Positions 45,532-63,082 of a stretch of DNA of 64,000 nucleotides are shown piece after piece (the first letter of the stretch is position 1; each line of letters starts with the position of its first letter). Origin of the DNA: Shimia sp. Alg240-R146 (GTDB taxonomy: Bacteria > Pseudomonadota > Alphaproteobacteria > Rhodobacterales > Rhodobacteraceae); assembly GCF_947331465.1 (NCBI RefSeq), contig NZ_CAMZOK010000001.1, positions 682,001 to 746,000 on the forward strand, in the 5' to 3' direction. The position numbers and the translations under genes are program-made. The notes below the pieces were generated by a model that was not told where the DNA came from, did no database searches, and saw only the letters and a list, made by a program, of their open reading frames with translations.

Positions 45532-46140
45532 TTGTTTAGGTTCGCCCATTTGTTTCTAAGCGCTCCGGCGTGGATTATCGCTGTTTTGTTCTCAAGCACG
45601 CCATTGTCTGCCGAAGTACGTGAGTTGCCGATTGCCGCAGACCGTTGCGCCATTTTCTATGCCTTGACGGGTCGGGTTGATGCCGGGTGCGCGATGCCAG
45701 ATCCGTTGGCACAGGGACCGCTACGCAGGCTACCGAATGGCTCTGAGTTCTCCAAAAAAGCTGCACCGCTGCGGGGGATCGCTGAGGAGCAGGGGTACTT
45801 TGTGAGATTCGCCTTTAACTCGGACAGTCTGACATCGGAGTATACCGCACATCTGGACCGCTTGGCGCAGGTCCTTGGCAGCAGTGCGCTGGATGGCAGT
45901 TGTTTCAAGTTGGTTGGACACACAGACACAGTTGGTGGATTGAGCTACAACTTGGCGCTGTCAGAACGACGCGCTTCGCAGGTGGCGGCCTATCTGGTGG
46001 CTAAGGGCGGAGTGCCGTTGGCGCGGCTTGGGACCGAAGCCCGAGGCGAGGCAGTAGGCCTGCCTGGCGTGCCCGGCGCGCATCCCTTGAACCGACGGGT
46101 GGAGATTTTGGCCAAACGCCAAACCAGCGACGGGTGCTGA
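45532..46140 (+). CDS. OmpA-like domain protein
   Basis: A 202-residue exported protein with a signal peptide and a C-terminal OmpA/MotB domain ([35 protein letters not shown], and NRRVEIL), which binds peptidoglycan. The start is a TTG at 45532 by the longest frame; a downstream start cannot be excluded. It overlaps the caspase-like gene by seven bases and is the first gene of the polysaccharide locus. Confidence 0.8.
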
Positions 46141-46877
46141 GATGTGGCATTCTTGGGGTGTGTTTGTTGTGGCTGAGTTTTGTAAATGTCGCGGCTGCGC
46201 AAAACAGCCACGTCGCCTTGGTTATCGGAAACGGTCACTATCGGGATCTGCCGAACCTACCAAATGCAACGAGAGATGCGCGTTTGATCGCGCATATGCT
46301 TAAGCGCCTTGGGTACAAGACCGTTTTGGTCACCGACACGACCCGTGAACAGATGTTAGGCGCGGTCGAGCAGGTACGGGTCTTTGCAAAGAATGCGTCG
46401 CAAGTAGTGATTTACTATTCCGGCCATGGTGTGGAAATCAACGGAGCCAGTCTGATTTTGATGCAAGACGCGCCCAAGAAAGGACTGCATCAATTGAGAC
46501 ATGCTGTTTCAGTATCGGAATTGATCAGCGTTTTTGCCGATCAACCGAGGCAAAAGATTGTTCTTTTGGACGCCTGTCGCGATAACCCGCTTTTGATTGG
46601 TGCCAATTTGTCCGGCCAAACGGATCAGCACATAATGGCAGGCACGTTCCTTGGTTTTGCCGCCCAACCAGGAGGTTCGGCTTTTGATGGCAAAGCCCGT
46701 ATCGGCCCTTTTGCCCGTGCCGTGGTTACCGAGTTGGCGCAACCAGTTCAGCCAATTGAGGATTTGATGCGCAACGTGCGTCTGCGCGTTGTGACGGAAA
46801 CCGGGGGCCAGCAAGTGCCGTGGAGCATGAATTCGCTGATGCGCCCGGCATACTTGAGCAGCCGGCCAGGACTATGA
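46134..46877 (+). CDS. Caspase-like (peptidase C14 family) exported protein
   Basis: A 247-residue protein with a signal peptide (cleavage after AAA, residue 22) and the bacterial caspase fold. [17 protein letters not shown] is the first strand and loop; the catalytic dyad can be placed at His98 (YYSGHGVE) and Cys148 ([10 protein letters not shown]). Members are metacaspase or orthocaspase-like cysteine peptidases; exported ones are common in alphaproteobacteria with unclear roles. The start is a GTG overlapping the OmpA-like stop. The last six bases overlap the convergent glycanase gene. Confidence 0.85.
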
Positions 46878-47621
46878 AGTGAAGTCGTAGTTGTCCGCCA
46901 TCGGGATGAAGCGAATGGCCCCGATGAAAGCGTTGGCCCTTGTCTCAACGCTGGGCGTTCCGGACCAAGCGTCTAAAGAGGGATCAGCAGCCCAAATGTT
47001 TGCGAAGAGAAAACTGGGCTCTGAGGGCAGGTCAGCTTCCTGCTGGGTAATTTCGAAAACCATCTGATCTTCGACGAACCATCGAATGCGATCAGGCAGC
47101 CATTCGAATGCATAGAGCCGTGGTTTGGTGGCCGCATCAAACCCCAAGTCAATGAAATGATTGGTGAGCACCCCATCCACAAACCAAGCCGCATGCAGGC
47201 GCGTGGTGTCCTTGCCCAGGAACTCGATGTCGATTTCGTCGTGGCGTGTGCCATAGTAGGCGCCGGTGTATGTGAAGAATCCGGTGATAACGCCGTCGCG
47301 CCGAGCCGGCTGCATAACCACTTCGTATCGGCCAAAATGAGTTGGCGTTTCTCTGCGTATTGAGGCGCCTTCAAACCGGTTTTTTCCCGTGGATTTTGGT
47401 GAAAGATACAGGTGAGCCCCATTGTTCAGGTGAATCTGATCTAGGGACCAATCCGTATCAAAATGCGGATGGGAAAATTCGTAATTCGCCACATGCCATC
47501 CGTCTGGATGTGAGGCCTTGAAGGTTTCGACAAATCCTTCTGCTGCCGTTGCCAAAGACGCATTTAAGACCACGATCAACCCTCCCAGAACGCTCAACAC
47601 CGACCAACGCCACATATCCAA
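46872..47621 (-). CDS. Glycoside hydrolase family 16 glycanase
   Basis: A 249-residue secreted enzyme with a signal peptide (cleavage about residue 27). The GH16 catalytic motif DEIDIEFLG gives nucleophile Glu129, Asp131 and acid/base Glu133. The family includes lichenases (beta-1,3-1,4-glucanases), laminarinases, ExoK-type succinoglycan depolymerases and agarases. Inside a polysaccharide synthesis locus it probably trims the product or sets its length. Leftward gene alone, convergent with the caspase-like gene. Confidence 0.88.
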   Translation of the reverse strand: MDMWRWSVLSVLGGLIVVLNASLATAAEGFVETFKASHPDGWHVANYEFSHPHFDTDWSLDQIHLNNGAHLYLSPKSTGKNRFEGASIRRETPTHFGRYEVVMQPARRDGVITGFFTYTGAYYGTRHDEIDIEFLGKDTTRLHAAWFVDGVLTNHFIDLGFDAATKPRLYAFEWLPDRIRWFVEDQMVFEITQQEADLPSEPSFLFANIWAADPSLDAWSGTPSVETRANAFIGAIRFIPMADNYDFTS

Positions 47622-49825: not shown

Positions 49826-50968
49826 ATGGGTAGTGACCCAGCAATTGTTCATCGGCATACGTGGATAGATGCGCTGCGTCTGTTTGCAGGTCTGTCGATG
49901 GTGGGGCTGCATTTGACGGCGGACCCAAACGGTCAACCCTTTGCAGACGCAACGGCTCAGGAGCGATTGGTCCCGATGCTGCTAAGGGCAATTTTGTACA
50001 CTGCCCGCACCGAGCTCTTTCTGATGATCTCCGTCCTATTGTTACTGATGTCGTTAGATCGGCGTTCGCGCAGTTATAGTGACGTGATGCATCAACAGGC
50101 CCGACGGCTGCTTGTGCCTTTTCTGTTTTGGACCGGCTTCTACGCGCTCTACGGCTTGATAAAGGCTCAGGCGTTTGGGTACTTTGCGAACGAGATTGCC
50201 CGGGTGACAGACCCTACTCGTTGGGTCGGATTTTTGGTGTTGGGTGATGTGAAGTATCACATGCACTTCGTGCCTACTTTGTTTGCACTTTTGCTGTTCT
50301 TTCCTTTGTTTCGCGTTGCGGAACGGCACCCGATTTTTGGCCTTTCTGTCATTGTGACACTTCTTGTTAAGCGTCATGTCGAAGGGGTCGTTTATTCAGA
50401 GCTCTGGGCAAGCGACGCTCTGCCTTTTGTGGTGCGACTGGTCAAGGTTACGACCTATGTTGGGTATGGTATGGCAGCGGGCGCCGTTCTTGGACTCTGG
50501 CGCGGTGTGTCGGCGCAAGATCGCGTCAGATGGGTGCCGACATTGGCGCTGTTCGCAAGTTTTCTGTTCGTTTTTAAGCTGATTTCCACGTGGCATGTGG
50601 TTCAATCCGGCGCTTGGGATTTCACCTATGAGCCACGGTATTGGGCGGATTTTTTGATGCCCGTGCTCTTGTTGCTGATGTGCATGTGCCTCGCCGAGCG
50701 GTCTTGGCCAATGTGGATTTCTCAGGTGTCCAAGTATTCCTTCGGCATCTATCTTTGTCATCCGATTTTCTTGGATGTGGCAGAGATCTTTCTGCGCACA
50801 TTTGCGGTGTCGCCAGCTGTGCAAGTGTTCGCAAAGCTCGCTTGGACGCTGCCTGCAACGTGCGGTTTTGTTTTCATTCTTTCCAGAATTCCTGCGCTCG
50901 CTTGGACGATAGGGCTCGGCCCTTTGCCGCGCCTTCGTCGCGTTCAAGACGCACAATTTTATTCATAA
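49826..50968 (+). CDS. Acyltransferase family 3 membrane protein
   Basis: A 380-residue membrane protein with about ten helices. The N-terminus HRHTWIDALRLFAGLSMVGLHL has the DxLR and downstream histidine typical of acyltransferase-3 proteins such as OafA and ExoZ, which acetylate or succinylate polysaccharides. YSFGIYLCHPIFLDV near residue 307 is another family marker. It begins the rightward run with the STAS-nucleotidyltransferase and the synthase, so it likely decorates the polysaccharide. Confidence 0.83.
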   Translation: MGSDPAIVHRHTWIDALRLFAGLSMVGLHLTADPNGQPFADATAQERLVPMLLRAILYTARTELFLMISVLLLLMSLDRRSRSYSDVMHQQARRLLVPFLFWTGFYALYGLIKAQAFGYFANEIARVTDPTRWVGFLVLGDVKYHMHFVPTLFALLLFFPLFRVAERHPIFGLSVIVTLLVKRHVEGVVYSELWASDALPFVVRLVKVTTYVGYGMAAGAVLGLWRGVSAQDRVRWVPTLALFASFLFVFKLISTWHVVQSGAWDFTYEPRYWADFLMPVLLLLMCMCLAERSWPMWISQVSKYSFGIYLCHPIFLDVAEIFLRTFAVSPAVQVFAKLAWTLPATCGFVFILSRIPALAWTIGLGPLPRLRRVQDAQFYS

Positions 50969-50981
50969 TAGGAGATAGAAT

Positions 50982-52478
50982 ATGCTCACAAATTGCGAAG
51001 ACATTGGACAGATTTCCATTCTAAAGATCGCAAGCAGTCGATTGACGGCGGCTGATCTTGGCCCTTTGAAAAGTGCGACGGACCGCATGTTGGACCGGGG
51101 ACGGAACACAATTTTGCTGGATCTTGGAGGTGTCCGTAGGGTTGCGCGTTCCGGGCTCGCAGCGCTGGTGGAGTTGCAAAGTGCCATGCCGCGCACCTCA
51201 AAGTTGGCGTTCTATGGCGCCCGGCCCCATGTGGCGGGGGAGATCATGCGATGCCCTCTGTCGTCTCTGCTTAGCTATCACGAAACACGTGAGGCCGCAT
51301 TGAACACACCGGAGGTTCTCCAGCAACGGCTCGCTGGCCTCAAGGCTGTTATCCTCTGTGCGGGCGCCGGTACCAGAATGCGTCCTTTGTCGCACGAGAC
51401 ACCTAAACCGATGTTGGACATCGCCGGAAAGCCGGTTCTGACGCGAGTTATGGATCATCTGGGTCGGTTCGGTATCCGGGATTTTATCCTCAACCCTGGC
51501 CATCACGCGCCATGCATCCATCATGCATTTGCGACAACGGCAAGACGCTCTGTTCAGTACGTGAATGAAGGTGGATACGTTGGCGGAACATGGCATCCCG
51601 CGCCGATGGGGTCAGCGTCTACTTTGGTGCGCCTGCAGACACGCCAAACCGCATTTGAAGATGATTTCGTGGTGCTTTGTGGAGACGCGATCACCGACAT
51701 TGACATGTGCGGGCTTGTTGATGCGCACCGCGCGTCCGGTGCAGAAGTGACAATCGCGGCCCAGCATGTCCCGCGTGAGGAAACCGGGAAGTATGGCGTC
51801 CTTGTTACGAATGCGACGGGCAAAGTGCTCGAGTTTTGCGAAAAGCCATCTCCTCGGGACGCGCGCTCCACTTTGGTCAGTACGGGCATCTATGTGTTCA
51901 GCCCTCGCGCCTTGAAAGGGTTGCCGGATCGGGCAGGTTTTGACATCGGCAACGATCTGTTGCCCCGAATATTGGCGCGAGGCGGTTCAATACAAACTTA
52001 TGACGCCCCATTTGTGTGGGCGGATCTTGGCAATGCCAAAGACTACTTTGACACCCTCGAACGGGTGATGAAGGGGGAAATTCCGGGCACGACTCCTGCG
52101 GGCGCGCTTGACCGAAACGGGGTTTGGGTGTCGCCGTCCGCCAAAATATCGCGTCGCGCGGTTGTGATTGGCCCTTGTTATGTTGGCCCCGGCGCTGAAA
52201 TCTGCGCGGGCGCGCACATCGAAGGACCGACAGTGGTCGGTGCTGGCGCCAAGATCAGCGGCCGAACGGTTCTCAAAAACGCGATTGTTCAGCCGGATAC
52301 GCTCGTAAGCTCGGGCACGTGGGTCTCGGATATGATTGTCGGTCAGGATTGGGCTTTGAACATTGACCAGAACACAGCACTTCCCCAGACTATTCAACCG
52401 CTGGAAGGCGTGTTTTCAACTGCGAAAATCGCGTTGCCGGACGAGGACATGCGTCTGACTCAAGGGCTCATGGGATGA
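50982..52478 (+). CDS. STAS domain fused to a sugar nucleotidyltransferase with left-handed beta-helix
   Basis: A 498-residue fusion. Residues 1 to about 105 are a STAS (anti-sigma-factor antagonist type) domain: ILLDLGGVRRVARSGLAALVEL matches the segment around the phosphorylatable serine of SpoIIAA, with Ser57 in the equivalent place. Residues 118-340 are a nucleotidyltransferase with VILCAGAGTRMRPLSHETPKPM, like mannose-1-phosphate guanylyltransferases and glucose-1-phosphate thymidylyltransferases. A C-terminal hexapeptide-repeat region (about 365-450) follows. The enzyme should make a nucleotide sugar for the polysaccharide; the STAS domain suggests its activity or location is controlled by a partner protein. 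Strong GGAG site at 50971. Confidence 0.82.
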   Translation: MLTNCEDIGQISILKIASSRLTAADLGPLKSATDRMLDRGRNTILLDLGGVRRVARSGLAALVELQSAMPRTSKLAFYGARPHVAGEIMRCPLSSLLSYHETREAALNTPEVLQQRLAGLKAVILCAGAGTRMRPLSHETPKPMLDIAGKPVLTRVMDHLGRFGIRDFILNPGHHAPCIHHAFATTARRSVQYVNEGGYVGGTWHPAPMGSASTLVRLQTRQTAFEDDFVVLCGDAITDIDMCGLVDAHRASGAEVTIAAQHVPREETGKYGVLVTNATGKVLEFCEKPSPRDARSTLVSTGIYVFSPRALKGLPDRAGFDIGNDLLPRILARGGSIQTYDAPFVWADLGNAKDYFDTLERVMKGEIPGTTPAGALDRNGVWVSPSAKISRRAVVIGPCYVGPGAEICAGAHIEGPTVVGAGAKISGRTVLKNAIVQPDTLVSSGTWVSDMIVGQDWALNIDQNTALPQTIQPLEGVFSTAKIALPDEDMRLTQGLMG

Positions 52479-53233
52479 GAGGCGCTGTCTGGGCACTAGC
52501 TGCGGTCGCCGCCCTCTTGACGGGCGGCGCTGTCGCGGCAGAGGACCGGTTTTGGATTCTGTGGGAACGCATTAACTTCATTGGCCAGCATTGTCCTGAC
52601 GGGGCCAGCTGTCTTGTGAAAAAGTCTTATACCAGCCGACCTCTGGAAACCGAGAACGAAGCCTTTATCTACCGACTTTTCGGTGTAAGCGGCGGAGGTT
52701 CCAACAGAGCGTTTGCGGTTGGTGAGCACCCCGATGCGCCCACCGTCTGTTCCGCCAATCAATCAAGCCTGACGTTGGGGTTTGATCCGGAGGCTCTTCC
52801 AAGGTCGGAAAAGGTAGAGGTGCTCCGTGGAGTGAAAGCCGTCCATGTGGATCTCACGGGCCTGCGTTCGCCCCCAGGGTTTTCCGATGGTTTCGGAGAA
52901 AGAGTGCATCAAAGGTTTGTCAGGATCCTGACAGGCGCAGGCATTCGCGTGGTGGACAAGGATGCGGTCGCACACCTTCCGGGTCAGCCGGTCATGAATC
53001 TCTACTTTTCGTTCACCGACCCCGATCATGATTGCGACTATGAATACTCGGTTTTTGCATCGCTCAGCCAGAATGTGCTTTTGGCTCGGGATCTAAGGAT
53101 AAAGATCCCAGCAGGTGTCTGGTCATTTTCAACTGGCAGTACCGAAAAGGACCATACCGGCACGGAGGAAGACGCGATTTTGCGCATTGCCGAGGCGTTT
53201 GTGCGTGATCACAGCAGGGTCAATAACCGTTGA
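52475..53233 (+). CDS. Unknown exported protein of the polysaccharide locus
   Basis: A 252-residue protein with a signal peptide (cleavage after AVA, about residue 22). It has an early cysteine pair (HCPDGASC), no membrane helix afterwards, and a C-terminal charged region (STEKDHTGTEEDAILRIAEAF). No family was recognised. Its ATG overlaps the stop of the nucleotidyltransferase gene by four bases and it precedes the synthase by 38 bases, so it belongs to the same transcript and is probably a periplasmic factor for polymer handling. Confidence 0.6.
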   Translation: MRGAVWALAAVAALLTGGAVAAEDRFWILWERINFIGQHCPDGASCLVKKSYTSRPLETENEAFIYRLFGVSGGGSNRAFAVGEHPDAPTVCSANQSSLTLGFDPEALPRSEKVEVLRGVKAVHVDLTGLRSPPGFSDGFGERVHQRFVRILTGAGIRVVDKDAVAHLPGQPVMNLYFSFTDPDHDCDYEYSVFASLSQNVLLARDLRIKIPAGVWSFSTGSTEKDHTGTEEDAILRIAEAFVRDHSRVNNR

Positions 53234-53271
53234 CTGCAGCCACATTTTTTTCCGAAATTGGAAGCCCGTAG

Positions 53272-55089
53272 ATGTCCGAGATTTACTTTCGACAGTTCGA
53301 AAATCGTACGCCGCCCGCAATGCCCGCAATGTCGCGGACACAGGAAGTCCGTTGGCATTTTTTGGCAGGAATGTCGGTTGCAATTGGACTGTGGTATCTG
53401 GTCTGGCGCTGGGGGACATCTTTGAACCCGGACGCATGGTGGTTTTCGGTCATTGTTGCGAGCGCCGAGACGTTATTTTTCCTTGGGACGCTGTTGTTTT
53501 TCTACGACATTTGGCGTGAACAGGACACGCCTCAACGACTGCCGCCTTCAACGCGTAACGAAGCGCAACTGGACGGAGAGCATGGGCCAATTGGGGTCGA
53601 TGTGTTTATCACAACATACGACGAAGAATGCGCCTTGGTCGCTCCTTCGATTGTTGCGGCCAACAACTTGATCGTGCCTGATAATATAGCCGTGCGTGTT
53701 TACCTTCTGGATGACGGCAATCGGACCGGGATGGCAAAAATCGCGAAGGAATTTGGTGTCACCTACTTAAGCCGTGACACAAACTTGGGGTTCAAGGCCG
53801 GCAATCTGCGCAACGCGCTTTTTCAGTCTCGCGGTGACTTTGTGGTTATTTGCGATGCAGATACCCGACTGTTTCCAACGTTTCTGCAGAACACGCTTGG
53901 TTATTTCCGTGATCCGAAAGCGGCCTGGGTGCAGACGCCCCATTGGTTTTACGACATCCCGGAAGGAGAACGCTGGGAGCACTGGGGTGCTCGGCATGGT
54001 GGCCGTTTCTTGGCCAAGTGCTCGTATTTTTTTCGGTTCGTTTCTGGAAAGCTCCGCGCCGGGGCCGATCCGTTTTTGTCAGACCCAAGGGTGTTTTTTG
54101 ACGTGATCCAACGCAGGCGCAATCGCCACGGCGCTTCGTTTTGCTGTGGTGCAGGTTCAATCCATAGGCGTGAGGCAGTGTTTGAGCAGGCGATGAAGCG
54201 CAAGGCGCGCGATACACGCGCCTTGGCTCAAAACTTTGGGGACTCATCGCCGTCTGCGGCGATGCCTTGTGTTCCACTCGAGCCCTATCGATTTCATGTG
54301 TCAGAAGACATTTATACGTCAATTCTGATGCATGCCGACCGCGAGTCGAACTGGATTTCGGTTTACCATCCAAATGTCGAAGCGCGTATGCTTTCGCCCT
54401 GGTCGATGAAGGCTTGGGCCTCGCAGAAACTTAAATACGCGGGCGGCACTTTTGACATTATGCTGCGCGACAATCCAATTTTCCAGCGCGGTATGCGTTG
54501 GCAAATCAAACTGCATTACGCAGCGACATTCGGATCATACCTTTCTGTGCTCTGGGCTCCGGTTTTGCTTTTGGCACCTGCCTTTGCCCTCGTTACTGGA
54601 TTGTCCCCCATCGCAGCCTTTACGCCTGCTTTTTTCGCTCATTTCCTGCCCGCCATTCTGGTTTCGGAATTGGCCATACTTGCCGCCTGCAAGGGGCATG
54701 ACATTGGTGCTGGAAGGGCACTTGGGATGGCATCGCTTCCGATAAATCTGCGCGCACTTTCCCTGGTTTTACGCGGAAAGAAACCACAGTTCCCTCCGAC
54801 CTCCAAGAAACCCGGCGAAAGCGAAGGGTGGCGCTATATCCGAGCACATCTTGTCCTGTTGGGAGTGTTGGCGTTTGCGGGGGTGTTTGGTTGCGTACAA
54901 GGCCTCTGGGGTGAGGCTGGGTACGGTACATCGATGCTGTGGGTCAACTTGTTCTGGCTGGCGTGGAATATGTCTTTGTTGGGACGATTGGCCCTAGCGG
55001 CTTTATGGCGGCCGGACATCGCCATTGCCGCCGCTCAAATTTCCAAAGGATCGGAGACGTCTGATGATTTCGACACCGCACCAGTTTAA
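53272..55089 (+). CDS. Cellulose-synthase-like glycosyltransferase family 2
   Basis: A 605-residue membrane glycosyltransferase. Two N-terminal helices (about 30-48 and 55-78) precede the GT2 domain: LLDDGN (Asp147/148), ICDADTR (Asp195/197), SFCCGAGSIHRR (matches the FFCGS motif of BcsA) and HVSEDIYTS (Glu345/Asp346). The QxxRW motif is replaced by QKLKYAGG (385-392). Several C-terminal helices follow. This architecture fits processive synthases of cellulose, curdlan or mixed-linkage beta-glucan type. The membrane fusion protein at 56473 and the GH16 enzyme at 46872 support a beta-glucan. No PilZ domain is present. Confidence 0.85.
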   Translation: MSEIYFRQFENRTPPAMPAMSRTQEVRWHFLAGMSVAIGLWYLVWRWGTSLNPDAWWFSVIVASAETLFFLGTLLFFYDIWREQDTPQRLPPSTRNEAQLDGEHGPIGVDVFITTYDEECALVAPSIVAANNLIVPDNIAVRVYLLDDGNRTGMAKIAKEFGVTYLSRDTNLGFKAGNLRNALFQSRGDFVVICDADTRLFPTFLQNTLGYFRDPKAAWVQTPHWFYDIPEGERWEHWGARHGGRFLAKCSYFFRFVSGKLRAGADPFLSDPRVFFDVIQRRRNRHGASFCCGAGSIHRREAVFEQAMKRKARDTRALAQNFGDSSPSAAMPCVPLEPYRFHVSEDIYTSILMHADRESNWISVYHPNVEARMLSPWSMKAWASQKLKYAGGTFDIMLRDNPIFQRGMRWQIKLHYAATFGSYLSVLWAPVLLLAPAFALVTGLSPIAAFTPAFFAHFLPAILVSELAILAACKGHDIGAGRALGMASLPINLRALSLVLRGKKPQFPPTSKKPGESEGWRYIRAHLVLLGVLAFAGVFGCVQGLWGEAGYGTSMLWVNLFWLAWNMSLLGRLALAALWRPDIAIAAAQISKGSETSDDFDTAPV

Positions 55090-56368
55090 GAACCGCGGCA
55101 GCTTGGTTTTTCTCGGAGGGTTGGCTTTGGCTGCCGGCCTCGCCCTTTATTCCGAAACTAATTTTTCGCTTGAAGGGGGCAGAAGATTTTTAGAACCGCT
55201 CCAACTCGCGGAGGTGCCCGCAAATGCGTCACAGGTTTTGTCAGAGGAAGACTTGGAAGACGCGGAGGTGGCTTGGCGATATTTCGAACAGAATTTTCGA
55301 CCCGAAACCGGCCTCGTGGATTCTGTTTCCGGCTTCCCGTCGACAACGCTTTGGGATCAGGGGAGTTATTTGCTCGCATTGCTATCGGCGCGTGGTCTCG
55401 ACATCATCAGTGAGGCCCGGTTTCAAAACAGGAGCTCTGCTTTGCTGGACGCGTTGGAGCAATTGGAGCTGTTCGAAGGTCGATTGCCCAACAAGGTGTA
55501 TCACACCGAAACTTTGGAAATGGTCACTTATGAAAACAGCCCGTCTGCGGAAGGCATCGGCTGGTCTGCGCTGGATTTGGCACGTTTATTGATGTCGCTC
55601 CGCGTTTTGGAGATGCGCCGCCCGGATGTAGGCCCCCGCATTCGGGCCCTGCTGGCGACATGGGATTTGAACGCAATGACCGGTCAAGGCCGACTATATG
55701 GCGCGACGCGTGAAGCCGGTGAGACAGTGTATTTGCAGGAGGGCCGGATAGGGTATGAGCAATATGGCGCGCGCGCAGCCGCGCTTTGGGGGTTGGACGT
55801 CCTGGAGGCTAGCAGCGCGCGGACAATTATGGATTGGACAAAAGTGTCCTCAGTTGAGGTCCCAGTCGACATCCGTCGCGCGCGCCAATTTGGCGCTATA
55901 ACACCAACGTTAAGTGAGCCTTACTTGTTGCAGGCATTTGAGCTAGGCTTGAACGCCGAAGGCAGGCTGTTGGCTAGTCGAATTTACAAGGCGCAGGAAG
56001 CGCGCTTCGACCGAACTGGCAAGATTACAATGGTGTCAGAGGATCACATCGATCAGGCACCACATTTTCTGTATAGCTCGGTTTTCAGCAATGGCGATCC
56101 TTGGGCGGTCGTGGCGGAAACAGGAGCGCGTTACGACGAGTTGCGCTCGGTGAGTCTGAAGGCTGCATTTGGGTGGGACGCACTATTAGGGACCGATTAT
56201 ACGCATCAGGCGCGCTCGTATCTGCAGGAGCTGAAACGCACCGACGGTTGGGCCACTGGACGATATGAAGCTGATGGCCGAGTAAACGAGATCGTGACTC
56301 TCAACACCAATGCGGTTGTACTCGAAGCGATGCATTTCATTGCAAAAGGTCCCCTCTCGCAAAATTGA
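55064..56368 (+). CDS. DUF3131-type protein (helical barrel), first copy
   Basis: A 434-residue protein with an N-terminal membrane segment (GSLVFLGGLALAAGLAL) and a periplasmic DUF3131 domain. Recognisable stretches are VAWRYFEQNFRPETGLVDSV, PSTTLWDQGSYLLALLSA and LPNKVYHTETLEMVTYEN. The fold is an alpha/alpha barrel related to glycoside hydrolases. The ATG at 55064 has a GGAGA site and overlaps the synthase stop by 26 bases; the frame extends 13 codons further to a TTG. It lies directly after the synthase, so it probably acts on the nascent polymer. Confidence 0.8.
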   Translation: MISTPHQFKNRGSLVFLGGLALAAGLALYSETNFSLEGGRRFLEPLQLAEVPANASQVLSEEDLEDAEVAWRYFEQNFRPETGLVDSVSGFPSTTLWDQGSYLLALLSARGLDIISEARFQNRSSALLDALEQLELFEGRLPNKVYHTETLEMVTYENSPSAEGIGWSALDLARLLMSLRVLEMRRPDVGPRIRALLATWDLNAMTGQGRLYGATREAGETVYLQEGRIGYEQYGARAAALWGLDVLEASSARTIMDWTKVSSVEVPVDIRRARQFGAITPTLSEPYLLQAFELGLNAEGRLLASRIYKAQEARFDRTGKITMVSEDHIDQAPHFLYSSVFSNGDPWAVVAETGARYDELRSVSLKAAFGWDALLGTDYTHQARSYLQELKRTDGWATGRYEADGRVNEIVTLNTNAVVLEAMHFIAKGPLSQN

Positions 56369-56472
56369 AACACACGACTGTCAGATCTATGCGCCCAAAG
56401 GCGCGTATACCTGACACTCGGCCGGCGCACGCCCGTGTCCAAGTGAGCGGCCTTTTGTGAATGAGAGCGCTG

Positions 56473-57693
56473 CTAAAAGTACGATCTTATGCGCTCAATC
56501 GAGGGACGTACCACAGAAATGAGAGTGGAGTCCGCAAGTTTTGCCGTGATTGTGGATCGCCCTAAACCGCCACGTAAATGTGAAACAACTTGTTGCATAT
56601 TGCCGGTCTTCAAGCTGTCCAAGCGGAGTTCCAGTCCAACCAGTGCCAGAGGTTCGCCGGCGTCCGACGTGAAGACCCTCTGAATGCCCGTTGCATGAGC
56701 TGCCAACGGAGGCTGCGTACTGGGTAGACCGGAAAATCGAACAAATACCCGTGCGCCTTGAGGCAACAATTCTGCCTGATTTATTGGCATGGTCATTGTT
56801 GCACTGTAATGCCCTGGCAGCTCAGTCTCCAGATGCACCAAAGTGGTGTCTGCAACAAATCCTTCGTGCAGTGGAAGATGCCTTACACGAGTAACCCTAC
56901 CAGGCTGTGGGGCTATCAGATGAGGCGTTTTGTAGTAGCTTTCAAAAAAGCTGATTTTTCGATTGAGGTCGCGAGCTTCGATTTCCAGACTGCGCACATC
57001 GGCTTGAACTTTTCTGTCTTGCGACAAGACTTCTTCCGCCATTTCCAAATCCAGCTCAGCCACTGCGGCATCCAGAGCCCCACGTTCGATCGCGGCGCGT
57101 AGCGATAAAACGCGGCGGAATGCAGGTGGGGTCAGTCGCAGTCTTTCAAGGGCCTCGCGATGTGTGATGGCAGCACGCGTTGATAGTTCCTGCCGGGTTT
57201 GCGTCAACCTTTCGCGTGCAAGAGCGTTCTCGCGGTGCCGCAGGCGACAGCGACGCAATGCTGCTTTGGCCTCTAAGTTGGCCCCGTTTTGCGAGTCGGT
57301 TTCTTCTACGGGAAGGCGCAACGTCATCGCGCTGCTCAACAGGCACTCCCGCTCTAGGGCGTTCACGGCCGCCACAGATCTTAGATGCGAAATTTGACCT
57401 TCCAATTGCTTCTGGTCAAAAAGTGCAACTCGCTGCCCCTGTTTTACATCTTCGCCTTCATGAACCAACACTGCTGCAAGCGGAATTTGGGCCGGAAGCA
57501 CAAGGGGCTGGCGCGAGAGTGTTGGGTCAAATTGGCCTTGGAACTGGCGCGTATCGGAAAAGGTAACCGCTTCGGAAAACAACACTCCGCTCACCGCCAA
57601 CAGGCCGGCTGTCGAAACGGCCCATCCGAGCCACAACACACCTTTGGCATTGGTTCGGCGCGGTGCGCGCGGATCAATGGACGGTCGTGTCAT
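56473..57693 (-). CDS. HlyD-family membrane fusion protein
   Basis: A 406-residue protein with one N-terminal membrane helix (VLWLGWAVSTAGLLAVSGVLF), a biotinyl-lipoyl-like segment (LVHEGEDVKQGQRVALFDQ), a long helical hairpin (about 95-240) and a second beta half (LIAPQPGRVTRVRHLPLHEG). This is the adaptor of type I or polysaccharide export systems. It overlaps the ABC-like gene by 20 bases, so the two are co-translated. In Sinorhizobium a fusion protein pairs with a GT2 synthase in mixed-linkage glucan production, which fits the locus. Confidence 0.85.
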   Translation of the reverse strand: MTRPSIDPRAPRRTNAKGVLWLGWAVSTAGLLAVSGVLFSEAVTFSDTRQFQGQFDPTLSRQPLVLPAQIPLAAVLVHEGEDVKQGQRVALFDQKQLEGQISHLRSVAAVNALERECLLSSAMTLRLPVEETDSQNGANLEAKAALRRCRLRHRENALARERLTQTRQELSTRAAITHREALERLRLTPPAFRRVLSLRAAIERGALDAAVAELDLEMAEEVLSQDRKVQADVRSLEIEARDLNRKISFFESYYKTPHLIAPQPGRVTRVRHLPLHEGFVADTTLVHLETELPGHYSATMTMPINQAELLPQGARVFVRFSGLPSTQPPLAAHATGIQRVFTSDAGEPLALVGLELRLDSLKTGNMQQVVSHLRGGLGRSTITAKLADSTLISVVRPSIERIRSYF

Positions 57694-59656
57694 CTTTGCT
57701 CGCCTTGCTTTGGGTCTGTTTTCGCGGATCGTAGGTTTTTACCGACACTTGAAGGGTGCCTGCTTCATCGTCGTTGGAGGCCTCAACTTCGAGCGCGTCC
57801 CGGATGATTTTGGCGAGAGGCGAGAGGCGTTCACCTTGAACAGAGGTCTTTGCGGCGGCGCGAGCTTTGGACATTGCACCGCTGGACAGAGACAGGCTCG
57901 GGTCCGTGAGCGTAAGGAGGCAGTGACCCGAGAAGTGTTTAAATCCAAAGGAAATTTTATCCAAATCCGCATCTCGTTTCGATGCCATCGTACATGCGAC
58001 GGATAGCATTTCGTTTGCAATCATGCAGATCGCGCGGCGGTTTGCTTCGTCGCCGTCCCGACGAAAGTGAGAGCTGAGCCAGGCATCCAGTGCCTCTTCG
58101 CTTTCCAGCTCTCTTTCGGTGACAAACTTGTTCCAACCCGTGGATTGGCGAGCGCGAATTTCGCTGCTTTCTGCGTATTCGATCAAGCGCCCGTTTTGCA
58201 TGACGAGGATCTTGTCGCACATGTCGAGAAGTTGCCGGCTGTCGGTAACAAAAATGCCGATTCCCCCGAGCTTTGTGTCTGCCAAAACACGATTGCCTAA
58301 AGCCCCAATAAGTTTCTCTGAGGCACCGTCTTCCGGACGGTCAAACAAATACAATCGAGGTCGAAGTGCCAGCGCCCGGGCAAAGGACATGGCTTTTTGT
58401 TCGCCAGCCGACAATTGGGTCACATCCTGAGTATGTGTGATGTGATCGACCGTATCGGTCGTGAAAACCAATGATTTTAAAATTCGTCGGGCCCTTTCCT
58501 GGCGGCTGGCATCGCCAAAACAGGTTAGATTGTCGTTGCCGCCGCCGGGCACCACCGATGGCTGCGGAGGAATGTGAACGGCTGAAAATTCTTGTTCACG
58601 CCCGCTGCGGTCCCAAAGGTTTGTACCATTGAGCACCACTCGACCGGTGATGTGCAGCGCAGCCAAGTCATGTGGGGCAAGGATGGCGCGCATCAATGTT
58701 GATTTTCCCGCGAAGCTGTCGCCGGTAATCCCAACAAGACTGCCTGGTTCGATGGAGAAGGACACGGAAGTTAGCAACGCTTTGCCATCGGAGGTGCGGG
58801 CGCTCAGCTGGCTTACGTAAAGACCTGTTTCAGGATCTTCTCCTGACTCAGAGTCTTCAGCTGGAAGGAGAGTTACAGATGATGCGCGCCCTTCCAATTC
58901 CGGATCAGATTTCGCTGTTTGGCGGGCAAATGCGGCAAATGAATCCACTGACCAATACGTCAACAACCCGATCGCCGCGATAGCGGACGGGGCCAGAACC
59001 CCACGCGCAACCAGCCAACTGGCGACCGCGCTGCCCCCGACAAGTGCGCCAAGACCTAGCGCTGTTTGAAACCCTTGCAATAAAGCGGCATCGCGTGGTT
59101 TTGCATTTGCCAATTCGAGCGCACGTTGATCGCGACCACCAAGGAAAGAGGGAGCCTCTTGGGAGATGAACTCCCACAATGGCTCTGGTCGAAACGTTTT
59201 GCCACCTATGTGGCAAGTCGACCACGCCAAAAGCGCACCAATAACAAAAGGTAGCGCCAAGTAGGGGTGCAAGAGTGCGAAAACCACTCCGGAGAAAACC
59301 CCTAGTAGAGCCTTTCCGGCCACTTGATTCCGGTTTCGAATGTAGCGAAAGCCAGCGAGGGCGCGTGCGTGGCCCACCTCAAAAATCAATATGCCTACGA
59401 TAGGCACAAGCGCGCCGGTCACCAGCAAAGCCGCGACGATTTCCTGTCCCTGCATGGCGACCAAATCAAAAAGAAAAACCGAGAAAATTGCCACCGCAAA
59501 CAGACAGACGCCGCCGCCAAGTGAAAACAATGTGGAAAGCAACAATGCCCAAAACGGCGTCGCCCGGTCGCGAAACCGCACGGGCGCCGGGTCAGAAGCA
59601 TTTAGTGATTCAAGGGAAACAGCCGGAATTCTCCGGTCGGGTGAACTATCTGACAT
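57674..59656 (-). CDS. ABC-type protein with degenerate catalytic motifs and C-terminal HATPase-like region
   Basis: A 660-residue protein. Residues 35-245 hold about five hydrophobic helices. The ABC domain has Walker A GDSFAGKST (312-320) and the signature LSAGEQKAM (415-423), but Walker B reads LYLFDRPED with Arg440 where the catalytic glutamate should be, and the H-loop is VTDSR, Asp472 instead of histidine. Residues 520-660 (for example IANEMLSVACTMAS near 546) are weakly like the N-box region of RsbW-type HATPases, with the key Asn replaced. The start at 59656 has a GAGG site. It overlaps the HlyD gene. It may be a regulatory or structural subunit rather than an active exporter. Confidence 0.7.
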   Translation of the reverse strand: MSDSSPDRRIPAVSLESLNASDPAPVRFRDRATPFWALLLSTLFSLGGGVCLFAVAIFSVFLFDLVAMQGQEIVAALLVTGALVPIVGILIFEVGHARALAGFRYIRNRNQVAGKALLGVFSGVVFALLHPYLALPFVIGALLAWSTCHIGGKTFRPEPLWEFISQEAPSFLGGRDQRALELANAKPRDAALLQGFQTALGLGALVGGSAVASWLVARGVLAPSAIAAIGLLTYWSVDSFAAFARQTAKSDPELEGRASSVTLLPAEDSESGEDPETGLYVSQLSARTSDGKALLTSVSFSIEPGSLVGITGDSFAGKSTLMRAILAPHDLAALHITGRVVLNGTNLWDRSGREQEFSAVHIPPQPSVVPGGGNDNLTCFGDASRQERARRILKSLVFTTDTVDHITHTQDVTQLSAGEQKAMSFARALALRPRLYLFDRPEDGASEKLIGALGNRVLADTKLGGIGIFVTDSRQLLDMCDKILVMQNGRLIEYAESSEIRARQSTGWNKFVTERELESEEALDAWLSSHFRRDGDEANRRAICMIANEMLSVACTMASKRDADLDKISFGFKHFSGHCLLTLTDPSLSLSSGAMSKARAAAKTSVQGERLSPLAKIIRDALEVEASNDDEAGTLQVSVKTYDPRKQTQSKASKDDTTVH

Positions 59657-59900
59657 AAACAAAAACCTCAAATGTGGGTCTGTTTTACGGCAGAGGAGTT
59701 AAGAAAGCTTTTCAGTCTTCCCCAACAGAGGCCCCGATCCTGAGGATGGCGGCCGTGATTCGAGTTGTTGGATAGCCCGATTCAATAGGGATATTTTTAT
59801 AGGTGTCTGTAAATAAAAGAATATAACCGATTTTCGTTGTTGGTTTCTCTTTGTTAACGCGTTTGCTGTTTTATGAATGCATTCCTTCTGGAGTGTTTTT

Positions 59901-61589
59901 ATGTTGCGTTTTTTTGGGTTTTCCAAAAGGTCTCCGCTCGCTGGCATCGTGACCTTTTTTGTTGCTGTTTTTGTGCTTGGCGGGGCGACCTACACTGTTG
60001 GCATTACCGCCCGACAGGTGTTTCTCGCCCAAGAAGAGGAAATTATTCCGGTTATTGCGGGCAGCGAACTTGATGACATCCCAGCGTTGATGCGAGGCAA
60101 TCTGGCCAGTGTTACGACCAGCGTAATCAAAGGCGAACAAAGAAGGCAAAAGCCCCCCCGCATGTGTGAGATGCCGCAAGACTATTTTGAGCGGCAGGAC
60201 TTTGCGCCTCATGCGGCGCAGGGATATGATCGTCACAATTCCTACGTCCGCAAATATCGTACTCGCCGTGGGTTTCTGAATGAACGAGAACTGCGTGCGG
60301 CCAAGGTTGCCTGGCATTATTTTGAGACTTTCACCCAAGAATCCACAGGTCTTGCAAATTCTGTCGGAAATTACCCCTCCACGACACTTTGGGATACCGC
60401 GTCCTATATGGCTGGATTGCTCGCGGCTTATGAATTGTGTTTGATTGAAAAGCCTGAATTTGACCGGCGGACAACGCAACTCCTGACGACAATAAAAACT
60501 CTTGAGCTGTTCCGAAAGGAGATGCCGAACAAAGTGTACCACACCAAGACGGGCGCCAAGGTGGACTACACAAACAAGCCCGGTGAGATTGGGTTTTCCG
60601 CGCTTGATATTGGCCGTTTCCTAGTGTGGCTGCGCATTTACAAAAACCGTTACCCTTATCTGGCTAACACAATTGATTCCGTGCTTTTGAAGTGGGATTT
60701 TAGAAACGCAGTGGATAGCGAAGGTCTACTTTTCGGCGCCTACGTCGATAAGGAAACGGGTGAAACCATTTACGCACAGGAAGGTCGGCTGGGGTATGAG
60801 GAATACGCCGCAAAGGGCTTTGCCTTGTGGGGTTTCCGACCTCGCCTCGCGCATCGTGCCGAGCCGTTTTTGACAGCGTCCATTTTTGGCGTTCAAGTCC
60901 CTTACGATGGCAGAGATCCGCGAGTGTTTCACTCGCAGAATTATGTGGTGACGGAATCCTATCTGCAGGACGGTCTCGAATTCGGGTTTGATTTGCCGCA
61001 GGATGACAGTTCACCGGAATGGGTGCACACAGATGGGTGGCGGGCGGAGTTCGCAGATAGGATCTACCAAGTTCAGGAAAACAGATGGCGCCAGACGGGA
61101 TTTCTCACTGCGCGCTCCGAACACAATGTCAAAGGTCCACCCTACTTCACCTACGACACAATTTTTTCTGACGGCTACCCTTGGAATACCGTCACACCGA
61201 GGGGCGACTATGTCCCCGACCATTCTGCGGTCGCCGCCAAGGCCGCTCTAGGGCTTTGGGCGCTTTGGGATACCGAGTATACGGACGTACTTTATGAGGC
61301 GGTCATTGAACTTTATGACCCGGAGAACGGAATGTACGAAGGGCTTTATGAGCGTGGTCAAGGTCGTGTGGCGATTTTCACGGCCAACAACAATGGCATC
61401 ATCCTTACGTCTCTGCTTCACAAGGTTCAGGGGCCAATCTTGACGCCTTACACCGGCGAGACCGAGGTCTGGTATACGGCCTACCGAGATCAGGACACAC
61501 GCGTCAATCGTAACTATCCTGATCCTCCGCAAAAGGAAGATTGGCTTCCGGCCCTGCGCCACTCTGTTCAAGAAAGGGCGGATTTCTAA
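59901..61589 (+). CDS. DUF3131-type protein, second copy
   Basis: A 562-residue protein with an N-terminal membrane helix (GIVTFFVAVFVLGGATYTV) and a DUF3131 domain: VAWHYFETFTQESTGLANSV, PSTTLWDTASYMAGLL and MPNKVYHTKTGAKVDYTN. It is clearly homologous to the protein at 55064 but longer (a larger linker before the domain). GGAG precedes the ATG at 59901; an ATG at 59877 is also in frame. Its stop shares bases with the next start (TAATG). Divergent from the ABC-like gene. Confidence 0.8.
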   Translation: MLRFFGFSKRSPLAGIVTFFVAVFVLGGATYTVGITARQVFLAQEEEIIPVIAGSELDDIPALMRGNLASVTTSVIKGEQRRQKPPRMCEMPQDYFERQDFAPHAAQGYDRHNSYVRKYRTRRGFLNERELRAAKVAWHYFETFTQESTGLANSVGNYPSTTLWDTASYMAGLLAAYELCLIEKPEFDRRTTQLLTTIKTLELFRKEMPNKVYHTKTGAKVDYTNKPGEIGFSALDIGRFLVWLRIYKNRYPYLANTIDSVLLKWDFRNAVDSEGLLFGAYVDKETGETIYAQEGRLGYEEYAAKGFALWGFRPRLAHRAEPFLTASIFGVQVPYDGRDPRVFHSQNYVVTESYLQDGLEFGFDLPQDDSSPEWVHTDGWRAEFADRIYQVQENRWRQTGFLTARSEHNVKGPPYFTYDTIFSDGYPWNTVTPRGDYVPDHSAVAAKAALGLWALWDTEYTDVLYEAVIELYDPENGMYEGLYERGQGRVAIFTANNNGIILTSLLHKVQGPILTPYTGETEVWYTAYRDQDTRVNRNYPDPPQKEDWLPALRHSVQERADF

Positions 61590-63082
61590 TGACATTTATT
61601 TCTAGACCAGTCGCGATTTTTCTTTGTCTTTTGCTGCCGGGAGCGCTGGGCGCGCAAACCAGTTTCGACGCAACAGAAAACCGAAGTTTCGCTTCTGAAA
61701 ACGCGATCCTCGACACCGCCATTCCATTCGCGATTGGCGCGCGCGAGGCTCAACAAGCATTGCGGGGCTCCTTTGGCTGGCCGAACTTTCAAGAAGGTCT
61801 CGTCGAAGGGGTGTATTTTCGATTTGATCCAGATGGTTACGCGCGGTTTGCGCCCACCCCGAGATTGGACGTAGACGTCTTTGAGGTCATTTGTCGCCCA
61901 AGAACGTATTCCTGCGCCGCCCGAAAAGAAGGTTTTGAGATGTTCCTCACCGATCGGGGACAAATCCAGTTGAAGCTTGAGAACGTGGCTTCCGGCGATA
62001 CGTTTCACGTTGTGGAAGGTGTGTCCGAGATACAAGTGCCGGTCCGAATTCTTCAGCCGTTGGATTTCCAGTTGGAAATGTTGCTTGCCTCAGGTGGCGA
62101 TCTATCGGCGCGGCGCGGCGGCAACGAGGTTTTGCAAGTGTCCCTAAAAGGCTTTGCGGCGGTGACCGCCTATCTACGGTGGATTTCAGCACGGCAGGAT
62201 TATGCGGTTTTGCCAAGAGGCTGGCCAGTGCCAAACGGCGCGACACCTGATATGGGCTCTACCGTCACACAATCGTCAACGTGGGCCTCTCCAATGCCGC
62301 AACCTCAGGCTCTTGCTCCTGCGGGTTCGCTGCAACATTTTCCGCAATTCACCCCTTCCTCCGATGAGGCAACTCAGTCCGAAACGGGTGCGTTGCGAGC
62401 AGAACTCGAAGAGCTAAAGCGACTGATGATACAAGGAAACCACCCAACTTCCGCGCGACAGACGCCGTCACCTGTCGTGGTACACACCACGACTCCAGCC
62501 GCGCCGCCAGCGCGCGATTTAGCCGTGCAAGAACTTCTCGCGACAATATCGGCCTTGCAATCTGATCTTGACGCGCTGAAAGCTCAGAGCCAGCCTGTGC
62601 CAATGGCAGATGAAGTGGCGATTGAACCGGTTGGTCAATCTACGGAGGCCGCGGCACCACTGCCGTTGAATGACACGGCAACAAATCTGCAATTCCTCAT
62701 GGATAGCCTTGGTTTGGACATGCAAACCGCCGTCGCGGTCATTCAAATGGCACCTCAAATCGCCACGTCCCCACCCACCCCCGAGTCGCCGGCCGCGGGC
62801 AATTCAATAGGTGTGCTAAAGTCTTCTGACGTCGGGTTCGGAACGCCTCAAAATGTTGGGTCGCTGCACGGATCCAAACCTCCAACGCAAGTGTTGTACC
62901 AGACCGACGTTGTAGACCAGATCTTGGCTGAGATCGAAGAGGAGATCGTCAGACCCAGGCACGACGCAAATGACCCTAACGGCGCGGTCGATCGTCCAAG
63001 CATCGAAGACTATCAACTGCTTTCGCGTTACTTTGTATCCGTCGCCTTGCCAGCTTTGACAGCAATGGCGCAGAACCCTTGA
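61589..63082 (+). CDS. Unknown exported protein with coiled-coil segments
   Basis: A 497-residue protein with a signal peptide (cleavage after GALGA, about residue 22). The first 200 residues are a beta-rich domain (FRFDPDGYARFAPTPRLDVD). Residues 200-340 are rich in Pro, Ala and Gln with two heptad-like segments (ALRAELEELKRLM, VQELLATISALQSDLDALKAQ). The C-terminal part ends in a short conserved-looking stretch (IEDYQLLSRYFVSVALPAL). No family recognised. It is translationally coupled to the DUF3131 protein, so a periplasmic role in polymer handling is inferred. Confidence 0.6.
   Translation: MTFISRPVAIFLCLLLPGALGAQTSFDATENRSFASENAILDTAIPFAIGAREAQQALRGSFGWPNFQEGLVEGVYFRFDPDGYARFAPTPRLDVDVFEVICRPRTYSCAARKEGFEMFLTDRGQIQLKLENVASGDTFHVVEGVSEIQVPVRILQPLDFQLEMLLASGGDLSARRGGNEVLQVSLKGFAAVTAYLRWISARQDYAVLPRGWPVPNGATPDMGSTVTQSSTWASPMPQPQALAPAGSLQHFPQFTPSSDEATQSETGALRAELEELKRLMIQGNHPTSARQTPSPVVVHTTTPAAPPARDLAVQELLATISALQSDLDALKAQSQPVPMADEVAIEPVGQSTEAAAPLPLNDTATNLQFLMDSLGLDMQTAVAVIQMAPQIATSPPTPESPAAGNSIGVLKSSDVGFGTPQNVGSLHGSKPPTQVLYQTDVVDQILAEIEEEIVRPRHDANDPNGAVDRPSIEDYQLLSRYFVSVALPALTAMAQNP

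Follow-up and report, generated by a model that had tools for sequence, protein, structure and literature searches.

Putative remnants of an RsbV/RsbW-type partner switch on a sugar-nucleotide enzyme and a degenerate ABC protein in a DUF3131 polysaccharide cluster of Shimia sp. Alg240-R146

Why should a sugar-nucleotide enzyme carry a STAS domain, and an exporter-like protein a kinase-like tail, in one and the same polysaccharide cluster? The question is raised by a 64,000-nucleotide stretch of the Shimia sp. Alg240-R146 genome (NCBI RefSeq assembly GCF_947331465.1, contig NZ_CAMZOK010000001.1, positions 682,001 to 746,000 of the forward strand), which we call the window and whose own numbering is used below. 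It holds a polysaccharide cluster with two DUF3131 genes, a STAS-nucleotidyltransferase fusion and an ATP-binding cassette (ABC) protein that resembles type I secretion exporters. An initial annotation, made from the sequence alone, had proposed that the latter two form a partner-switching module built into the export machinery. We favor, with a probability of roughly 55%, a modified answer: a partner switch has been rebuilt as a phosphorylation-free docking pair that links the sugar-nucleotide enzyme to a non-transporting ABC scaffold.

The ABC protein is encoded on the minus strand (57674..59671) and comprises 665 amino acids when read from a TTG codon, with an in-frame ATG at 59656. Hydropathy and alignment place its membrane part, a series of hydrophobic stretches, at residues about 39-239 (58955..59557, minus strand). 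Its nucleotide-binding domain occupies 58334..58774 on the same strand (Pfam ABC_tran, residues 300-446, E 8e-16) and was examined motif by motif, the ABC motifs and the N-box discussed below being read in their generally known roles. We aligned 17 degenerate ABC sequences, the window protein counted, with 10 canonical, motif-intact paralogues. In the window protein, the Walker A Lys and the Walker B Asp are present, and the catalytic Glu and the H-loop His, both reported lost by the initial annotation, are indeed replaced by Arg (DRPE) and Asp, respectively. All 17 degenerate sequences keep the Walker A Lys and the Walker B Asp. None has the catalytic Glu (Arg in 12, Gln in two, and Lys, Gly and Met in one each), which is retained by 10/10 canonical paralogues, and none has the H-loop His, found in eight of the 10. 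The second signature Gly (LSGGQ) is present in a single degenerate sequence, that of the window protein itself (LSAGE), as compared to all 10 canonical paralogues. Furthermore, the coupling stretch that follows the second membrane helix (cytoplasmic loop 1) is a gap at the reference column in 17/17 degenerate sequences and is filled in nine of the 10 canonical ones, the tenth being a short open reading frame. In the alignment, the window protein lacks both stretches that match the cytoplasmic coupling loops of the canonical paralogues. Judged from these sequences, the degeneracy is a family-wide trait and not an accident. Because neither the catalytic Glu nor the coupling loops remain, the ABC protein has most likely stopped transporting. 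A tree of the nucleotide-binding domains, whose root is arbitrary, splits the degenerate from the canonical copies. A contig scan with the whole ABC protein also matched two Clostridia loci, which we rejected because the similarity was confined to the nucleotide-binding domain.

About 150 residues extend beyond the nucleotide-binding domain of the window protein, whereas the four ordinary type I exporters that we compared end 16-45 residues after theirs and have no such tail (a fifth exporter locus, L162, carried no annotation and was left out). The tail domain (residues 512-651; 57719..58138, minus strand) had been described as faintly similar to RsbW-type HATPases. Using hhalign, we matched it to nine RsbW proteins of related DUF3131 clusters at 94.5%, with a score of 48.7 over 129 columns; 40 column shuffles scored at most 14.6. 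Two tail profiles compared with 14 HATPase_c_2 sequences from this bacterial family score 27-28, and 200 column shuffles of each stay at or below 19.2. The canonical paralogues alone reach 87.6% with the pooled RsbW set. As controls, four stretches from elsewhere in these ABC proteins were compared with the RsbW sets (score at most 15.4), and the tail profiles with STAS or SpoIIE profiles (at most 15.7). Searches of Pfam and of PDB sequences that used the tail as query gave nothing convincing. Taken together, the profile comparisons indicate that the weak similarity of the tail to RsbW-type ATPases is most likely real homology, visible only with profiles. The N-box Asn, noted as missing in the initial annotation, is Val in the window protein and is found in 0/27 aligned members, canonical paralogues included; for this reason, the tail domain looks like a pseudo-kinase throughout the family.

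Two AlphaFold models of the tail, computed from the window sequence alone (single-sequence) and of low confidence, agree with this assignment. For the second model, ten of the top eleven PDB rows in VIA-align are RsbW, SpoIIAB, SiaB, UsfX or other anti-sigma chains at Z 7.3-9.0, and the row at rank 8 is LvrC; chain identities were judged from length and residue range, a Z under 8 can mean a common arrangement, and three chains only reach 8 in each model's list. The first model gives the same picture in VIA-align, and its leading Foldseek matches are SiaB and RsbW, with E values of 0.02 to 0.1. A query with the tail matched 11 of 198 genomes of the family, own genome counted. Class-wide searches with two tail alignments recovered the own genus (2 genomes) and one weak short match, i.e., 3/385 and 2/289 genomes, with the best 9 to 13 first-look candidates scored per genome and few genomes of the own family drawn. 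Two viral contig scans contained no relative of the tail.

The predicted other half of the switch is encoded on the plus strand, where, as initially annotated, the locus holds a STAS fusion. The STAS domain forms residues 1-112 at the N-terminus (50982..51317; Pfam STAS_2, residues 18-85, E 1e-7, above the Pfam cut-off) and is followed in the same open reading frame by a sugar-1-phosphate nucleotidyltransferase with hexapeptide repeats (51342..52478; Pfam NTP_transferase, E 4.6e-35). In the window fusion, the column that we take to be that of the phospho-Ser, by its position in SpoIIAA, holds Arg (ARSGL). The Ser occurs in 0/17 distinct fusions and in 24/24 standalone rows, 23 of them distinct; duplicates occur for L143 and L141 in the fusion set (two rows apiece) and for one row, L129, among the standalone proteins. 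The nucleotidyltransferase signature GAGTR/PKP/GD is intact in the window fusion and looks intact in 10 of the 17 fusions, the window counted. It is lost in six (G195, the partly read G160, G001, G197, G611, and G112), and the fusion of G139 is cut by a contig end. The STAS part is kept in all 17. That it remains where the enzyme signature is lost (6/17) points to a docking role for the STAS domain. Loci with enzyme-decayed fusions that keep the STAS part are L032 (6720-8210), L106, L121, L125, L126, and L024.

Co-occurrence of the two families, which had been suggested as a check, was scored in 265 genomes of the family with 13 or 15 first-look candidates per genome. The tail profile found 15 genomes, each with a degenerate ABC protein, and the STAS-fusion profile found the fusion in exactly those 15, two of the fusions being cut by contig ends. 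The association has a Fisher p of 9e-25 among genomes that are related and with profiles built from members of this set. Another 27 genomes gave weaker STAS matches, with E values no better than 1e-16; in 23 genomes the matching frame has at most 161 amino acids, and in four it has over 200. When two further genomes are added, the degenerate ABC protein and the fusion occur together in 17/17; three more genomes without the tail yielded short STAS matches or none, all genomes of this added search having been chosen from earlier matches. The pair also co-occurs unlinked, on contigs 4 and 5 in G197 and about 200 kb apart in G611. In G001, 94 bases separate the end of the fusion gene from the start of the ABC gene. 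Both the RsbW/SpoIIAB-like fold of the tail and its co-occurrence with the fusion are well supported. The two outcomes named in the initial annotation as refuting its proposal, a different fold of the C-terminal region and proteins that never co-occur, did not arise to the extent that these checks were run.

The DUF3131 clusters of the same kind that we inspected and that have no ABC gene contain an intact switch in its place. Genome G057 has the acyltransferase, the glycosyltransferase, both DUF3131 genes and the nucleotidyltransferase and gave no match to the tail. Its cluster (L148, 8334-10313 and 17901-19244) encodes, in adjacent genes, a separate STAS protein, a nucleotidyltransferase that is not fused to it and an RsbW that is intact (HATPase_c_2, E 1e-21), and a receiver-SpoIIE gene flanks the cluster. 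A plasmid search with the DUF3131 protein returned 17 records. We opened 10 (of the other seven, four come from species that these 10 cover and three are additional Pantoea records), and all 10 hold STAS, HATPase_c_2 and SpoIIE domains in the stretch opened. Together with G057, 11/11 of the ABC-less clusters inspected thus have a phospho-Ser STAS protein, an RsbW kinase and a SpoIIE phosphatase, the parts in the plasmid clusters being identified by annotation, profiles and Pfam. Conversely, neither an RsbW-type kinase nor SpoIIE was found in the window or in the readable ABC and fusion loci, where several contigs are short and flanks only could be read. The pair and the intact switch replace each other reciprocally between these clusters. 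Since all ABC-less clusters inspected keep a separate Ser-bearing STAS protein and a kinase, the fusion and the loss of the Ser follow the ABC tail rather than the pathway as such.

A few profile matches were rejected on inspection. SpoIIE-profile matches in L068 and L165 are receiver-domain transcription factors (response regulators), and an RsbW-profile match in L068, a locus omitted from alignment A3, is an ordinary sensor kinase. Of two matches in the Nostoc locus L158, one is a receiver domain and the other a real SpoIIE domain. L149-L153 and L155-L157 are DUF3131/glycosyltransferase plasmid clusters of Rhodobacterales and enterobacteria with a SpoIIE/STAS/RsbW switch; these often also carry OpgC, a globin and a large response regulator.

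Based on these data, we propose that a former RsbV/RsbW-type switch of a DUF3131 polysaccharide cluster survives as two halves, the STAS-nucleotidyltransferase fusion and the ABC protein bearing the RsbW-like tail. The STAS half would have become fused to a sugar-nucleotide enzyme in this lineage, and the kinase-like half, devoid of its ATP-binding Asn, would have come to form the end of an ABC protein of the type I secretion kind. We infer that the STAS domain and the tail most likely still bind each other without phosphorylation. The ABC protein and its HlyD-like partner could then serve as a scaffold in the membrane and keep the sugar-nucleotide enzyme at the polysaccharide synthase, and the kept Walker A site may allow ATP binding to set the grip.

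Several observations weigh against such a docking pair, and the chief one concerns the canonical paralogues. In the own genome, a canonical secretion ABC protein with the same RsbW-like tail is encoded on contig 1 at about 1,738,820-1,740,895 (L039, 9820-11895) and adjoins genes for an RTX calcium-binding protein and HlyD, as is also the case in L033. Such copies were found in 11 genomes in a search of 295 (10 were aligned; the copy of G139, on a short contig, was omitted). All 11 genomes also carry the degenerate copy, and six of the 17 genomes with a degenerate copy showed no canonical one. Because the canonical secretion ABC protein carries the tail and the flanks read contain no STAS gene, the partner of the tail may be another protein. 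On the side of the tail itself, a third profile (A1) compared with RsbW sequences from the own family scores only 20.1 (3.2%), the canonical paralogues by themselves give 24.7% with the RsbW set of the related clusters, and Pfam HATPase is absent from all 21 distinct family members scanned. The models have a pLDDT (predicted local distance difference test) of 49.5 and 55.7 and a pTM (predicted template modeling score) of 0.41 and 0.43. The unrelated nucleotidase ISN1 reaches Z 7.3 with the second model, equal to several anti-sigma rows, and Foldseek gives no match with E of 0.001 or lower for either model and ranks two designed proteins first for the second. The phylogenetic tree, in which many branches are long, does not show the fused STAS domains descending from the cluster STAS proteins. 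A tblastn search of plasmids with the tail produced no match, the chromosomes of the plasmid hosts not having been searched for the ABC gene. Finally, the two proteins could co-occur because the pathway is inherited as a whole.

The last point and the canonical paralogue form the basis of the alternative that survives best, namely that there is no direct link. The two proteins would belong to one inherited polysaccharide pathway, the STAS domain would bind another protein, and the tail would only stabilize the ABC dimer or bind a partner of its own. The presence of other cluster genes in the same genomes is consistent with this. Against it stands that every ABC-less cluster of the same kind that we inspected keeps a separate Ser-bearing STAS protein and a kinase, which ties the fusion and the Ser loss to the ABC tail, and we regard the alternative as rather doubtful. 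Similarly tentative, and a little more so, is an extension of the docking pair in which the dead ABC protein binds ATP but does not hydrolyze it and in this way gates tail-STAS docking at the synthase, and the canonical ABC protein competes for the STAS tag, tying RTX secretion to polysaccharide output.

Control of the MlaB type seems unlikely to us. In this case, the STAS domain would bind the nucleotide-binding domain, as MlaB binds MlaF, and the tail would do something else. A STAS-ABC complex is known for MlaFB (PMC7367683), and the ABC protein and the STAS fusion do co-occur. However, it is the tail that resembles the classical STAS partner, and control of hydrolysis makes little sense because the nucleotide-binding domain lacks its catalytic residues. 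Least probable by far is a partner switch that still works by phosphorylation, with the tail phosphorylating the STAS domain and a distant phosphatase reversing the reaction, as in RsbV/RsbW or SypA/SypE: the kinship of the tail with RsbW in profile and fold, the intact switches of related clusters and the presence of RsbW-type and STAS genes elsewhere in the own genome would fit, but the phospho-Ser is missing from every fusion and present in every standalone row, the N-box Asn is missing from every aligned member, and no SpoIIE was found in the loci read. The partner-switching module of the initial annotation therefore stands in its parts, i.e., in the RsbW-like tail, the co-occurring STAS domain and the intact switch of the related clusters, and finds no support as an active phospho-switch, for which both residues as well as a nearby phosphatase and a separate kinase are missing.

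The genes around the two proteins complete the cluster. On the plus strand, an Acyl_transf_3 membrane acyltransferase gene (49826..50968) lies directly 5' of the STAS fusion. The fusion is followed by a gene for a conserved hypothetical protein (52475..53233) without a Pfam match, which has relatives in some of the loci, and by a cellulose-synthase-like family 2 glycosyltransferase gene (53272..55089; Pfam Glycos_transf_2, E 2e-15; NCBIfam CelA, E 3e-52, below its cut-off). The first DUF3131 gene (55025..56368, plus strand; Pfam DUF3131, E 2e-127) comes next. The gene for the HlyD-like periplasmic adaptor (56473..57693, minus strand; weak NCBIfam HlyD-type matches) shares 20 bases with the end of the ABC gene, and such a gene adjoins the ABC gene in 12 of 17 loci, the window counted and one match being partial. 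Divergent from the ABC gene is the second DUF3131 gene (59877..61589, plus strand; Pfam DUF3131, E 2e-117), whose product is 73-88% identical in 13 of the 16 other ABC-gene loci, the top identity among the cluster genes compared. A gene for a hypothetical protein without a Pfam match lies 3' of it (61541..63082, plus strand) and has relatives in many loci. The cluster also includes two OmpA-like genes, a caspase-like gene and a family 16 glycoside hydrolase gene. The caspase-like peptidase gene (Peptidase_C14, 46134-46877) adjoins OmpA and is also found in the related loci L029, L031, and L165. The family 16 glycoside hydrolase (46872-47621) is similar to beta-glucanase and ExoK, and this likeness suggests that the polymer made by the cluster may be of the beta-glucan type.

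If the proposed docking pair is real, a phosphorylation switch can turn into a fixed or nucleotide-gated docking pair, and apparent intermediates exist in living genomes: the three-gene switch, an unfused STAS protein beside the enzyme, the fused STAS domain, and fusions whose enzyme has decayed. DUF3131 polysaccharide clusters, a little-studied type seen in records of Rhodobacterales, Pantoea, Vibrio, and Nostoc, would gain a regulatory logic that can be tested, and MlaFB would be joined by a second possible case in which STAS and ABC proteins meet. Our literature search, whose coverage excluded most subscription papers, returned no description of these architectures.

Among known systems, RsbW/SpoIIAB and RsbV/SpoIIAA are matched by the tail, in its profile and in the order of its fold elements, and by the STAS domain as the other half. 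Here, however, the N-box Asn and the phospho-Ser are lost, no phosphatase was found in the locus, and the two halves are fused to an ABC protein and a nucleotidyltransferase. SypA/SypE of the Vibrio fischeri syp polysaccharide and Hmp of Nostoc punctiforme are partner switches of STAS protein, kinase and phosphatase tied to polysaccharide (PMC8256260). These use phosphorylation, whereas in the window the residues needed for it are missing and biosynthesis and export-type proteins carry the parts as fusions. Enterobacterial DUF3131/cellulose-synthase-like/OpgC clusters have the same kind of synthase and DUF3131 genes together with an anti-sigma factor and its antagonist, and a Klebsiella block of this accessory kind is named in PMC12974863. 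They differ in keeping a separate phospho-Ser switch and in having no ABC gene in the annotated stretches. PrtD-type type I secretion exporters provide the best NCBIfam match of the window ABC protein (TIGR01842, far below cut-off), and the canonical paralogue of the own genome sits beside RTX and HlyD genes, but the window protein has lost the catalytic Glu, the H-loop His and the coupling loops. Finally, MlaB and MlaF are the known STAS-ABC pair and share with our locus the pairing of a STAS protein with an ABC protein. According to PMC7367683, MlaB, which keeps its Thr52, docks onto the nucleotide-binding domain of a transporter that works, whereas the ABC protein in the window is devoid of catalytic residues and presents an RsbW-like tail.

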